Source: Geodermatophilus ruber (GTDB lineage Bacteria > Actinomycetota > Actinomycetes > Mycobacteriales > Geodermatophilaceae). From it: a stretch of DNA of 64,000 nucleotides. A program made the position numbers and the translations under genes. Below are positions 17,526-60,038 of this stretch, in pieces (position 1 is the first letter of the stretch; each line of letters begins with the position of its first letter). Location of the stretch: the NCBI RefSeq assembly GCF_900114385.1, contig NZ_FOSW01000006.1, positions 124,001 through 188,000 on the forward strand, in the 5' to 3' direction. The notes beneath the pieces were generated by a model that had not been told where the DNA came from, made no database searches, and worked only from the letters and a program-made list of their open reading frames with translations.

Positions 17526-19001
17526 TCAGGCGGGTACGGGGGCCGGCTGTGCGGTGGGGTCGAAGACCGGCGCGTACCGGCGCCATGGCCGCCGCCGCTC
17601 CAGTTCTCCTGCGATCCAGAGTAGTCGCTCCTCGGCACCCGGGCCCCCGACGAACTGGACGGCCAGGGGGTGCCCCTCGCGCCGGGTGCCCGCGGGCAGC
17701 ACCAGGGCCGGCAATCCGGCCAGGTTCCAGGCCGCGGTCCACGGCGCCCAGCGGGCGTTGGCGGTGACGTTGGCCAGGAAGGACCGCTCGTGCCAGGGGC
17801 GCGCCGGCAGCGGCGGCCCCGTGGTCACCGGGGTGAGCAGCAGATCAAGGACCTCCCCGCCCCCCACTCCTCGCACGCTCGGAGCGGAACCCTGCGGGGA
17901 GGCCGAACTGGCTCCTGCGAAGAAGGCGACCATGCGCTCCCGGAAGCGCTCGGCGGTGCGCGGCCGCACCAGGCCGGCCGCGCGGACCGCACGCCCGATG
18001 CGGGCGTGGGTGCGGCTGCGGGGCTGCAGGTCGTGCAGGGCGATCCCGAGGTGCTCGGCGTCGTCGGCGGCGCCGGCCATCCAGCGGGTGAGCGCCCCGG
18101 CCGCCGCGCCGGGGGTGATCGGCGGATCACGCCGGACGACGGTGTGCCCGGCGGCGGCCAGCGTGGCGGCCACGGCGTCCACCGCGGCCCGCGCCGGGCC
18201 GTCGGCCCGCACCCCGGGCACCGGCGAGCGGGTCGAGACGGCGATGCGCAGCGGCCGCCCGGGCGGGGCCGGCGCCGCCGGTTCCTGCCCGGCCAGGAGC
18301 GCGTGGGCCAGCGCCAGATCGGCGACGGTGGTGGCCAGTGCACCGTTCACCGCCATGCCGGACCAGTCGTCGGCGCCGATCCCCGCCGGCACGACGCCGC
18401 GCCCGGGCTTGAGGGTGACCAGCCCGCAGGCGGCGGCCGGCAGGCGCAGGGAGCCCATGCCGTCGTTGCCGTGCGCGAGCGGGACCGCCCCGGAGGCCAC
18501 CGCCGCGGCGCTGCCGCCGGAGCTGCCCGCCGGGGAGCGGGCGGTGTCCCACGGGTTGCGGCTCACCGCGCCCGGGCCGTCGGTGGCGGCGTACAGGCAC
18601 AGCTCGGGAGCGCGGGTGATGCCGACGACGACCGCGCCGGCGGCGCGCAGCCGGGCGACCACGGCGTGGTCCTCGCTCGCCACCCGGCTCGGGCAGGCCG
18701 GCGAGCCGTCGGTGCAGACCTCCCCGGCCACGTCGACGTTGTCCTTGACCGCGATCGGCACCCCGGCCAGCGGCAGCGCGGCGCGGTCGGGGGCGGCGTC
18801 GACGGCGGCGGCCTCTTCCAGCGCGGCCTCGCGGCGCACGACACGGAAGGCGCCGATCCGGGCCTCCACCGCGTCGATGTGCGCGAGGTGCGCGCGCACC
18901 ACCTCGACCGCCGTCAGCTCCCCCGCGCGCACCCGCGCGGCCAGCTCCGTCGCGGGGAGGCCGACGATCTGACCGGCTGCGGCACCTCCGCTAGCGTCCA
19001 T
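17526..19001 (-). CDS. amidase signature family enzyme
   Basis: Ser-cisSer-Lys hydrolase of the amidase signature family, 491 residues. The triad can be placed as Lys86 (AVKDNVDV), Ser160 in PAGSSGGSAAAVASG, and Ser184 in GMGSLRLPAA, with the family's usual spacing. The substrate is not evident; it could be an aryl or alkyl amide. No gatA/C partner genes are nearby, so it is not the GatCAB subunit. Near residues 367-383 the coding sequence contains a 51-bp palindromic repeat also found in the fadB-like gene. It lies divergent from the metallo-beta-lactamase-fold gene. Confidence 0.88.
   Translation of the reverse strand: MDASGGAAAGQIVGLPATELAARVRAGELTAVEVVRAHLAHIDAVEARIGAFRVVRREAALEEAAAVDAAPDRAALPLAGVPIAVKDNVDVAGEVCTDGSPACPSRVASEDHAVVARLRAAGAVVVGITRAPELCLYAATDGPGAVSRNPWDTARSPAGSSGGSAAAVASGAVPLAHGNDGMGSLRLPAAACGLVTLKPGRGVVPAGIGADDWSGMAVNGALATTVADLALAHALLAGQEPAAPAPPGRPLRIAVSTRSPVPGVRADGPARAAVDAVAATLAAAGHTVVRRDPPITPGAAAGALTRWMAGAADDAEHLGIALHDLQPRSRTHARIGRAVRAAGLVRPRTAERFRERMVAFFAGASSASPQGSAPSVRGVGGGEVLDLLLTPVTTGPPLPARPWHERSFLANVTANARWAPWTAAWNLAGLPALVLPAGTRREGHPLAVQFVGGPGAEERLLWIAGELERRRPWRRYAPVFDPTAQPAPVPA
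17852..17902 (-). repeat. dispersed hairpin repeat, copy 1 (inside amidase)
   Basis: A 51-base element read on the minus strand, with terminal arms CCTCCCCGC and GCGGGGAGG, an inner stem CCGCTC/GAGTGG and the loop CGAGCGTGCGAG. It closely matches the element at 58723-58769: 27 of 33 core bases are identical, and most differences keep the pairing. It is 17 codons long here and does not disturb the frame. Its coding translation (about ASPQGSAPSVRGVGGGEV) looks like linker sequence, not amidase fold. Confidence 0.75.
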
Positions 19002-36312: not shown

Positions 36313-38007
<1,695 letters not shown>

Positions 38008-56691: not shown

Positions 56692-57894
56692 ATGTCCCGC
56701 TCGCTGCGTGAGGTCGTCTTCGTCGACGGCGTGCGCACCCCCTTCGGCAAGGCCGGCCCGAAGGGCATCTACGCCGAGACCCGCGCCGACGACCTCGTCG
56801 TCCGCGTCATCCGCGAACTGCTGCGCCGCAACCCGGCGCTGCCGGCCGAGCGCGTCGACGAGGTGGCCATCGCCGCGACCACCCAGGTCGGCGACCAGGG
56901 TCTGACCCTCGGCCGGACCGCCGCTCTGCTGGCCGGACTGCCGAAGTCCGTGCCCGGCTACTCGATCGACCGCATGTGCGCCGGCGCGATGACCGCGGTC
57001 ACCACGACGGCGTCGGGCATCGCCTTCGGCGCCTACGACGTCGCCATCGCCGGCGGTGTGGAGCACATGGGCCGCCACCCGATGGGCGAGGGCGCCGACC
57101 CGAACCCCCGGTTCTTCAGCGAGAAGCTGGTCGACGAGTCCGCGCTGGTCATGGGCGCGACGGCGGAGAACCTGCACGACCGCTTCCCGCACCTCACCAG
57201 GGAGCGCGCCGACGCCTTCGCGCTGGCCAGCCAGCAGAAGTACGCCAAGGCCGTCGCCACCGGCCAGATCGGGCCCGAACTGATCACCATGGCCACCCGC
57301 TCGGCCGAGCAGGGCTGGGGCGTGGCCACCGGCGACGAGCCGCCGCGGCCGAACACCACCCTCGACGGCCTCGCCACGCTGAAGACGCCGTTCCGGCCGC
57401 ACGGGAACGTGACCGCCGGCAACGCGGCCGGTCTCAACGACGGCGCCACCGGGTGCCTGCTGGCCGCCGAGGAGGTCGCGCTCGAGCTCGGCCTGAACGT
57501 CGGCATGCGGCTGGTCGGCTACGGCTTCGTCGGCGTCGAGCCCGAGGTCATGGGTGTGGGTCCGGTGCCCGCTACCGAGAAGGCGCTGGCCCGCACCGGC
57601 CTGTCGATCGAGGACATCGGGCTGTTCGAGCTGAACGAGGCCTTCGCCGTCCAGGTGCTGGCCTTCCTCGACCACTTCGGCATCGCCGACGACGACGAGC
57701 GGGTCAACCCGTGGGGCGGCGCCATCGCCGTCGGGCACCCGCTGGCCTCCTCGGGCGTGCGGCTGATGACGCAGCTGTCCCGCCAGTTCGCCGAGCGACC
57801 CGACGTCCGGTACGGCCTGACCGCCATGTGCGTGGGCCTGGGCATGGGCGCCACCGTGATCTGGGAGAACCCGAACTGGGAGGGCGACAAGTGA
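56692..57894 (+). CDS. fadA: acetyl-CoA C-acyltransferase (thiolase)
   Basis: Thiolytic cleavage of 3-ketoacyl-CoA in beta-oxidation. 400 residues; nucleophile Cys96 in DRMCAGAM, NEAFAVQ, GHPLASSG with active-site His, and the second Cys in AMCVGLGMGA. Family motif GGVEHMGRHPMGEG is present. ATG with GGAGG four bases upstream. Ends with GTGA overlap into the fadB-like gene, forming the usual beta-oxidation pair. Function as a degradative rather than biosynthetic thiolase is inferred from the partner. Confidence 0.95.
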   Translation: MSRSLREVVFVDGVRTPFGKAGPKGIYAETRADDLVVRVIRELLRRNPALPAERVDEVAIAATTQVGDQGLTLGRTAALLAGLPKSVPGYSIDRMCAGAMTAVTTTASGIAFGAYDVAIAGGVEHMGRHPMGEGADPNPRFFSEKLVDESALVMGATAENLHDRFPHLTRERADAFALASQQKYAKAVATGQIGPELITMATRSAEQGWGVATGDEPPRPNTTLDGLATLKTPFRPHGNVTAGNAAGLNDGATGCLLAAEEVALELGLNVGMRLVGYGFVGVEPEVMGVGPVPATEKALARTGLSIEDIGLFELNEAFAVQVLAFLDHFGIADDDERVNPWGGAIAVGHPLASSGVRLMTQLSRQFAERPDVRYGLTAMCVGLGMGATVIWENPNWEGDK

Positions 57895-60038
57895 CCGCGG
57901 TGTTCGAGGACGAGGTCGTCACCACGGCGCTGGTCCGGTACCTGCGGGTGCCCGGCCTGGCCGGTGAGCTGGCGCTGATCACGCTGGACAACGGGCACGA
58001 CCACACCCGCCCGTCCACCTTCGGGCCGGGCGGGCTGGCCTCGCTGGACGCCGCGCTCGACGAGATCGCGGCCCACTCTCCCGCCCCGGCGGCGATCGCG
58101 GTGACCGGCAAGCCGTTCATCTTCGCCGTCGGTGCGGACCTCTCCGGCGTCCCGTCGGTCACCGATGCGGCCGCCGCGCGGGAGATCGCCGAGACCGGGC
58201 ACCGGGTGTTCCGCCGGCTGAAGGACTCGACGGTCCCGACGTTCGCCTTCGTCAACGGCGCCGCGCTCGGCGGCGGCCTGGAGCTGGCGCTGCACTGCCA
58301 CTACCGCACCATCGCCACGACGTCCGTGGTCGCCTTCCCCGAGGCGTTCCTCGGCCTGGTGCCCGGCTGGGGCGGCACGCAGCTGCTGCCGAACCTGATC
58401 GGCATCGACGCGGCGGTCACCGTGATCGTCGAGAACGCCCTGGCGCAGAACAAGATGACGCCGGGCCCCAAGGCCGCCAAGCTCGGCATCGCCGACGCGG
58501 TGTTCGAGCCGGCCGACTTCCTCGAGCGCTCGCTGGAGTGGGCGGCCGGCGTGCTGGGCGGCGACGTCGCCGTGTCGCGTCCCGAGGTGGACCGCGGGGC
58601 GTGGGACGCCGCGATCGGCCGGGCGAAGGCCATCGTGGCCGGCCGCACCCGCAACGCCTCTCCCGGCGCCGTGCGGACCGTCGAGCTGCTCGACCTCGCC
58701 CGCAACGGGGTCGACGGCGACGCCTCTGCAGGGTCCCGCCGCGAGCTTGCGAGTGGTGGGGAGCAGAGGGGTCCTTTCTCGGTGGGCACCGCGGCGGAGG
58801 ACGACGCCCTCACCGAGCTGCTTCTCAGCGACCCGCTCCGGGCGAGCCTCTACTCCTTCGACCTGGTCAACAAGCGGGCCAAGCGGCCGGCCGGCGCGCC
58901 CGACAAGTCGCTGGCGCGCAAGGTCACCAAGGTCGGCGTCGTGGGCGCGGGCCTGATGGCCAGCCAGCTGGCGATGCTGTTCGTCCGGCGGCTCGAGGTG
59001 CCCGTCGTCCTCACCGACATCGACCAGGCGCGCGTGGACAAGGGCGTCGGGTACGTGCACGCCGAGCTGGACAAGCTGGCCGCCCGCGGCCGGCTGTCGC
59101 AGGACAAGCTCAACCGGCTCAAGGGCCTGGTCACCGGCTCGCTGTCCAAGGACGTCTTCGCCGACGCCGACCTCGTCATCGAGGCCGTCTTCGAGGAGAT
59201 GTCGGTCAAGCAGCAGGTGTTCGCCGAGGTCGAGGCGGTGGTGTCCGACACGTGCGTGCTGGCCACCAACACGTCGGCGCTGTCGGTCACCGAGATGGCC
59301 AGCAAGCTCGAGCACCCGGAGCGGGTCGTCGGGCTGCACTTCTTCAACCCGGTGGCCGTCCTGCCCCTGCTCGAGGTCGTGCGCGCCGAGCAGACCGATG
59401 ACGCGTCGCTCGCCACGGCCTTCGCCGTCGGCAAGTCGCTGAAGAAGTCGTGCGTGCTCGTGGCCGACGCCCCGGCGTTCGTGGTCAACCGGCTGCTCAC
59501 CCGCTTCCTGGGCGAGGTCACCGCGTCGGTGGAGCAGGGGACGCCGGTGGCCGTGGCCGACCGCGCGCTGGACCCGCTGGGCCTGCCGATGACGCCGTTC
59601 GAGCTGCTGACGCTCGTCGGCCCCCCGGTGGCGCTGCACGTGGCCGAGCGGATGCACGAGGCCTTCCCCGACCGGTTCCACGTCGGCGAGGGCCTGCGGA
59701 AGATGGTCGAGCTCGGCAAGTCCTCGGTGTACTCGGAGCCCGGCGTCGTCGACCCCGACCTCGCGGGCATCGGCTATGGCTCCCCCGCCCACCCAACGCC
59801 GCTCACCGAGGAGCAGGTGCGGGAGCGGGCCGAGCGGGCGCTGGCCGAGGAGATCCGGCTGATGCTCGACGAGGGCGTCGTCCAGGCGGTGCAGGACATC
59901 GACCTGTGCATGCTCCTGGGTGCCGGCTGGCCGTTCTGGCTGGGCGGCATCTCCGCCTACCTGGACCGCATCGGGGTCTCCGAGGCGGTCACGGGCAAGC
60001 GGTTCCTGCCGAAGGGCGTGGCATCGCTCCCCGCCTGA
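57891..60038 (+). CDS. fadB: fatty-acid oxidation multifunctional enzyme (enoyl-CoA hydratase/3-hydroxyacyl-CoA dehydrogenase)
   Basis: 715 residues. N-terminal crotonase domain (about 1-230) with FAVGADLSG, ALGGGLELALHCHY and PEAFLGLVPGWGGTQL; then a 3-hydroxyacyl-CoA dehydrogenase Rossmann domain from about 345 (GVVGAGLMASQ, TDIDQARVDKG, ATNTSALSVTEMA, GLHFFNPVAVLPLLEVV) and its C-terminal helical domain. The linker (about residues 278-293) contains the 47-bp hairpin repeat shared with the amidase. GTG start overlaps the fadA stop by four bases. The GAGLMA motif lacks the common second glycine. Confidence 0.93.
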   Translation: MTAVFEDEVVTTALVRYLRVPGLAGELALITLDNGHDHTRPSTFGPGGLASLDAALDEIAAHSPAPAAIAVTGKPFIFAVGADLSGVPSVTDAAAAREIAETGHRVFRRLKDSTVPTFAFVNGAALGGGLELALHCHYRTIATTSVVAFPEAFLGLVPGWGGTQLLPNLIGIDAAVTVIVENALAQNKMTPGPKAAKLGIADAVFEPADFLERSLEWAAGVLGGDVAVSRPEVDRGAWDAAIGRAKAIVAGRTRNASPGAVRTVELLDLARNGVDGDASAGSRRELASGGEQRGPFSVGTAAEDDALTELLLSDPLRASLYSFDLVNKRAKRPAGAPDKSLARKVTKVGVVGAGLMASQLAMLFVRRLEVPVVLTDIDQARVDKGVGYVHAELDKLAARGRLSQDKLNRLKGLVTGSLSKDVFADADLVIEAVFEEMSVKQQVFAEVEAVVSDTCVLATNTSALSVTEMASKLEHPERVVGLHFFNPVAVLPLLEVVRAEQTDDASLATAFAVGKSLKKSCVLVADAPAFVVNRLLTRFLGEVTASVEQGTPVAVADRALDPLGLPMTPFELLTLVGPPVALHVAERMHEAFPDRFHVGEGLRKMVELGKSSVYSEPGVVDPDLAGIGYGSPAHPTPLTEEQVRERAERALAEEIRLMLDEGVVQAVQDIDLCMLLGAGWPFWLGGISAYLDRIGVSEAVTGKRFLPKGVASLPA
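58723..58769 (+). repeat. dispersed hairpin repeat, copy 2 (inside fadB)
   Basis: 47 bases with terminal arms CCTCTGC and GCAGAGG, inner stem CCGCCG/TGGTGG (with G-T pairs) and the loop CGAGCTTGCGAG. It matches copy 1 at 17852-17902. It falls in the linker between the crotonase and dehydrogenase domains and is read in a different frame from copy 1. Confidence 0.75.

Follow-up and report, generated by a model that had tools for sequence, protein, structure and literature searches.

A 59-nt palindromic element dispersed through genomes of the Geodermatophilaceae and usually placed directly behind stop codons

Two genes of unrelated function in a 64,000-nt stretch of the Geodermatophilus ruber genome (contig NZ_FOSW01000006.1, positions 124,001 to 188,000; hereafter the window) each carry a short palindrome of similar sequence within an open reading frame. 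Is the match a coincidence, conserved protein sequence or a repeat that spreads? A first-pass annotation had placed the palindromes at 17852-17902 and 58723-58769 and proposed a spreading mini-hairpin that lands in protein linkers. Both copies are present, and their real extents are a few bases wider (Table 1). A 26-base core pattern derived from copies A and B matched only these two places in the window at up to three mismatches, and none of 100 shuffles held two matches. The next-best match of the covariance model R1 in the window scored 14.7 bits, against the tabulated scores of copies A and B, which are both within the R1 training set.

Table 1. Coordinates of the features discussed, in the window unless another contig is given.
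Feature	Position	Strand	Basis
Copy A, 59-nt palindromic element (AAGGACC...GGCCG)	17847-17905	+	Covariance model R1, 80.3 bits
Copy B, 59-nt palindromic element	58718-58776	-	Covariance model R1, 76.1 bits
Host gene A, amidase (PF01425)	17526-18932	-	Gene call; frame intact
Host gene B, fadB-like enoyl-CoA hydratase / 3-hydroxyacyl-CoA dehydrogenase	57891-60038	+	Frame intact
First c-di-AMP riboswitch match	36396-36553	+	RF00379, 39.6 bits
Second c-di-AMP riboswitch match	37489-37646	+	RF00379, 55.8 bits
241-nt direct repeat, first unit	36677-36917
241-nt direct repeat, second unit	37748-37988
Tandem array L026, same genome	C23:115783-115910

Genes were called by codon usage, with a simple caller that had been trained on the window and was applied to other genera too. 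Each copy lies antisense to its host gene. Both host frames are open and their domains were matched despite the inserts; host A matched PF01425 at 1.2e-74 in its longer frame, 17526-19001. The insert of copy B lies between the ECH and 3HCDH_N domains of the fadB-like protein. That of copy A falls inside the span of the amidase Pfam domain rather than between domains. In PDB sequence searches with both hosts, the best alignments listed pass over the insert region. The two copies are translated in different frames, as the annotation had said and as the translations show. The alignment also bore out its compensatory changes: between copies A and B, pair 22-37 is T-A versus C-G, pair 23-36 is C-G versus A.C (on the opposite strand, G-U), and the outer arms have changed in concert.

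In the whole genome (4.99 Mb), 77 places matched a looser core pattern at up to three mismatches and the reversed control pattern matched none. The 77 include at least one apparent chance coding match (L086) and two repeat matches contributed by array L026. R1 was built from 30 copies of equal register out of 74 references. The covariance-model search of the genome that the first-pass annotation had suggested returned many further copies, at least 123 matches at E <= 0.1; from the 14,842 candidates of the first look 150 were scored, which makes 123 a lower bound. For the copy analyses 117 of these matches were used (weakest E 0.008), three partial matches and three that were not retrieved being dropped. 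The dispersed hairpin is thus real, but a count of two was far too low for a genome with at least 117 copies. In array L026 the element core occurs three times in tandem at a period of 51 bp, and the element is therefore able to turn into a minisatellite.

The element is about 59 nt long, with AAGGACC and GGCC(G) as its ends. Its outer stem has 11 pairs and a single bulged base, and encloses an inner stem of 8 pairs and the loop CTCGCNNGCTCG. This loop is largely conserved, in part because the search core selects for it; its exact sequence occurs in 60 of the 72 pattern-found copies and 20 of the 45 model-only copies. Terminal inverted repeats are present, with 96.6% of cells paired between outer stem columns 3-14 and 48-58. 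A GTTCCAGCACGTCACC-like downstream extension follows 9 of the 117 copies, against 1 in the control, and is also found after 14 of 37 copies in four relatives (G008, G014, G006 and G007; L262-L301). Because this stretch is conserved 3' of some copies, a longer form of the element may exist.

The stems covary. In an alignment of 30 copies (29 distinct rows) 91.3% of cells were paired over 19 pairs. Both sides had changed at 11 of these pairs, in 55 cells against a shuffled mean of 14.3; none of 500 shuffles reached these values. A measure based on further pair types was weak (26/500 shuffles). Sliding the partner by one column lowered pairing to 41-45%, in a comparison that favours the unslid register since the structure was drawn from the same 30 sequences.

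Mismatches were unevenly distributed between the strands. Across 106 R1-aligned matches (104 distinct), which are related sequences, the AAGGACC strand held 115 A.C cells and 15 G.T cells; a single column gave 67 of the 115, and without it the counts were 48 and 15. Since an A.C on one strand corresponds to a G.T (in RNA, G.U) on its complement, the fold is better kept opposite AAGGACC, and the asymmetry says that this is probably the strand whose fold is kept. Single-sequence RNA folds of three copies gave -37.5/-30.0, -34.8/-25.1 and -43.7/-38.2 kcal/mol for the opposite/AAGGACC strands. Shuffles of the opposite strand were likewise more stable, and the z-scores of the two strands lie close together (-2.67/-2.62, -1.99/-1.51 and -2.21/-1.86).

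The 117 copies were sorted by gene context into '>>' (57), '><' (32), '>?' (1), '<<' (12), '<>' (5) and inside a called gene (10). Of the 90 intergenic copies behind a co-directional gene, 79 begin at -3 to 6 nt relative to its stop codon, with 50 exactly 2 nt after it (49 TGA, 1 TAG) and 14 at exactly 0 nt (9 TGA, 5 TAG). Anchoring to the stop was alike in model-only copies (30/45) and pattern copies (49/72). A sample of named relatives was taken as 116 stretches picked by exact core match, in which 183 copies were classified and 16 near ends skipped. In this sample 106 copies were stop-anchored (-4 to 8 nt), 61 of them at 2 nt; a further 33 lay unanchored behind a sense gene, 41 were otherwise intergenic, two were well inside genes and one was at a gene edge. 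The usual place of the element is directly behind a stop codon and gene-internal copies are the exception, which corrects the earlier view of protein linkers as the landing site.

Integron attC sites also stand behind stop codons. Their core-site motif was not seen in the elements, and this identity was set aside. Stop-readthrough elements were set aside because the lengths and frames of the elements vary. A stronger competitor is a family of RNA hairpins at gene 3' ends that terminate transcription or stabilise the mRNA end; selection would maintain them, recombination among copies would spread them, and mobility would be secondary. In its favour, the elements are placed behind sense stop codons, and for 11 of the 12 '<<' copies the stop of the right-hand gene is no more than 22 nt away. 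The 115:15 asymmetry is that expected of an RNA strand using G.U, and CCTT with a tail rich in pyrimidines, though without a clean T run, comes after the hairpin on the folding strand. However, the strand that folds better runs antisense to the anchoring gene, and a convergent partner is not obviously enriched (57 '>>' against 32 '><', raw counts without a background). A consensus scan of two regions found no intrinsic terminator, in a scan made weak by its loop limit of 8. Copies in the amidase, in fadB and in the gene behind pheT, moreover, leave their frames whole. An RNA hairpin as the primary explanation was judged unlikely, and the terminator role was ranked second; it is compatible with mobility, by analogy with REPs found downstream of genes (PMC3733652, available text).

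The gene-internal copies were compared with orthologues. fadB orthologues were obtained from 11 of 16 other same-genus genomes searched and from five other-family genomes; all 16 lack the element of copy B, with a 51-nt gap in the same-genus sequences. For the amidase, 16 same-genus orthologues cover the insert site and 13 are without the insert. The G015 orthologue carries an element (71.2 bits) and that of G009 a short remnant. Relative to the L119 orthologue, the net gain in the amidase is 63 nt. The G016 amidase (L107) has one clear copy (59 bits) which, by eye, sits within a decayed older copy; its frame is open.

Only four of the 117 copies lie well inside convincing genes. Besides the two in the window, these are one copy close to the 3' end of an RlmN-like gene and one in a heavy-metal P-type ATPase gene. 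Both are antisense, which makes four of four, a number too small to interpret. The claim that the hairpin lands in genes without breaking them holds as to the frames, but protein linkers are a rare landing place (4/117 here and 2/183 in the named relatives). Two sense copies of the same genome, L068 and L019, stand near the 3' ends of a PfkB/cytidylyltransferase gene and an FAD-binding gene, and seem to lengthen the C-terminus of each.

Chance or protein conservation could be entertained only while two copies were in view. The shuffles, the 77 places against none for the control, the insert-free orthologues and the differing frames leave it hardly credible, and it was rejected. The spreading mini-hairpin of the first-pass annotation agrees with the many copies, the covarying stems and the in-frame inserts that are absent from most orthologues.

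A further in-frame site was found behind pheT, a gene that shares a few bases with the following one (GTGGCTGA or variants of it). Fifteen same-genus loci, the window's own genome included, reach the pheT stop; the truncated G012 locus was left out. Five carry an element 0-8 nt behind the stop, nine are empty and that of G015 has remnant-like sequence. In all five occupied loci the next gene, dehydrogenase-like by a TGxxxGIG motif seen by eye, reads through the element in frame as V-(about 25 residues)-VALVTG; at an empty locus it reads V-ADLSGS-VALVTG. By eye the five copies differ in subfamily, and the site has therefore been hit repeatedly or its copies have replaced one another.

Turnover was followed in two sister pairs, G008/G014 and G006/G007 (200 kb each), whose sequences around glgE are 95% and 97% identical. 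Thirty-seven copies were found and the flanks of 34 were mapped, with flank identities mostly of 90-98% (range 80-99%). The sister had no detected copy at 22 of the 34 sites; one site scored as absent, G007:132262, has a diverged hairpin below threshold in the sister, so that 22/34 is an upper bound, and a comparison of two sister sites reads the same for insertion and for deletion. The 12 occupied rows are six sites counted from both sides. At five of these the copies have the same orientation, with element identities of 0.72-0.89 between flanks that are 90-97% identical; at the sixth they are in opposite orientation.

Between glgE and treS, same-genus genomes showed element-free sites, elements in both orientations and a copy within the loop of another; some of the empty sites resemble deletion scars. 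Nesting was recognised by eye at glgE in L246 (copy in the loop) and L252 (apparently triply nested), and in the window's genome in L010, L061, L070 and L082. Four of these six loci also appear as split halves. When half-elements were paired, 228 pairs lay at the normal distance, 9 at 16-120 bases and 4 beyond 500 bases, and 24 five-prime halves were unpartnered. No target-site duplication was recognised by eye at filled and empty pairs, where boundaries are fuzzy, and no longer parental copy with the same ends was recognised in the loci retrieved, the four split pairs of more than 500 bases excepted. The element is thus dispersed and structurally conserved, turns over between sister species and is in frame when in genes.

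A first scan gave 15-312 core matches in each of 25 same-genus genomes (own included). Over the window's family, 100 of 112 genomes and 9 of 12 genera had core matches, some genomes only 1-4, and reversed-pattern controls gave 0-2 per genome. Copy-rich genomes include G015 (275) and G016 (212). In other families 2 of 16 genomes had a single match each, which is the control level. With 150 candidates scored per genome, R1 gave many matches in G003 and G015, no matches in G041 and G069, two in G057, four in G047 and five in G091, and none in four genomes of genera g22 and g23 or in three other-family genomes. An exact-core scan of 84,980 named species returned at least 80 matches; those listed are from Geodermatophilus, Blastococcus, Modestobacter and Trujillonella, all of the Geodermatophilaceae, from genomes named only to that family, and from one 'Frankiales bacterium' MAG. 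As far as searched, the element is specific to one bacterial family.

A REP-type Y1 (HUH) transposase had been suggested as mobiliser. The corresponding profile, Y1_Tnp PF01797, was found in none of the 112 family genomes, copy-rich ones included, and its control was positive in 5 of 14 genomes; this suggestion was dropped. The reverse transcriptase profile RVT_1 (PF00078) occurs in 49 of the 112. It is missing from the window's genome and from copy-rich G015 and G016, yet present in members of g21, g22 and g23, genera without core matches, and reverse transcriptase was rejected for these reasons. TnpB was rejected too, its zinc ribbon PF07282 being present in only 7 of the 112. No Rfam family matched at gathering score at the elements of the window and six further loci. 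A description of a 59-nt palindrome family was not found in the literature searched, which mostly lacked subscription papers; the available text of PMC9686282 mentions palindromic repeats only as CRISPR.

Among known systems, GTAG/CGTC-tagged REPs are 20-40 bp palindromes lying mostly downstream of coding regions and sometimes inside genes, and GTAG REP termini often supply the stop codon (PMC3733652, available text). The phyla given in that text for REPs lack Actinobacteria, and neither 'actinobacteria' nor 'geodermatophilus' appears anywhere in the paper's main text. The present element resembles them as a dispersed imperfect palindrome of high copy number, mainly extragenic and sometimes gene-internal. 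If a REP-associated transposase of the Y1 (HUH) type, since lost or overlooked, had moved the element as a classical REP family, this would account for the small size, the high copy number, the 3'-end preference and the strand asymmetry; GTAG stands directly before 9 of the 117 copies, and TAG ends 7 of 38 non-anchored 5' flanks. Unlike REPs, however, the element measures 59 nt against their typical 20-40 bp, its stop is usually a TGA two bases before the element, tetranucleotide counts of the 5' and 3' flanks show no conserved GTAG/CGTC tag, and the family lacks a Y1 transposase. A classical REP origin is very improbable on these grounds and stands refuted for PF01797-type enzymes. Neither a consistent REP tag nor a RAYT was encountered, and the element was therefore not filed as a REP.

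Rickettsia palindromic elements, of about 150 bp, likewise occur in frame within unrelated coding genes (PMC10969869, available text); they differ from the element here in length and in that its gene-internal copies are exceptional. Like the MITEs of that source, and like enterobacterial RU elements, the element is short and non-autonomous with complementary ends. Of the further MITE features, neither a parental transposon nor, by eye, a target duplication was recognised in the loci retrieved. MIRU of mycobacteria are short repeats of actinobacteria that insert at TGA sites where genes overlap, and the element resembles them in these two respects by general description rather than by sequence comparison. 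Enterobacterial RU elements also occur inside genes (PMC2759123, available text).

The element is probably a non-autonomous mobile palindrome akin to REPs and MITEs. It would represent a new, family-specific type that strongly prefers 3' ends. It would be copied through a folded single strand, of DNA or RNA, of the strand opposite AAGGACC, and this folded strand would be recognised by a putative enzyme, a mobiliser whose existence we infer. Insertion favours the 3' ends of genes, either at the stop or shortly after it, by target choice, selection or both. For a gene-internal copy to persist, the frame would have to stay intact and the protein to tolerate some 20 additional residues. A more specific version is put forward tentatively: an enzyme of a kind not yet described, distinct from Y1 HUH transposases, reverse transcriptases and TnpB, might join the folded strand opposite AAGGACC at gene 3' ends. 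If so, a stop-seeking hairpin would be rewriting the DNA behind stop codons family-wide and occasionally adding about 20 residues to an enzyme.

How REP-like palindromes spread without a RAYT is a question raised for CGTC repeats (PMC3733652, available text). The Geodermatophilaceae provide many genomes, sister sites that often differ, nested copies and a near-fixed distance behind stops, and target choice and mobiliser are therefore testable. The element family would also explain in-frame enzyme inserts and fast-changing 3' intergenic DNA in these bacteria.

Elsewhere in the window, the two c-di-AMP riboswitch matches lie 1.1 kb apart beside the 241-nt direct repeat (Table 1). Together they are perhaps a duplicated riboswitch-plus-gene unit.
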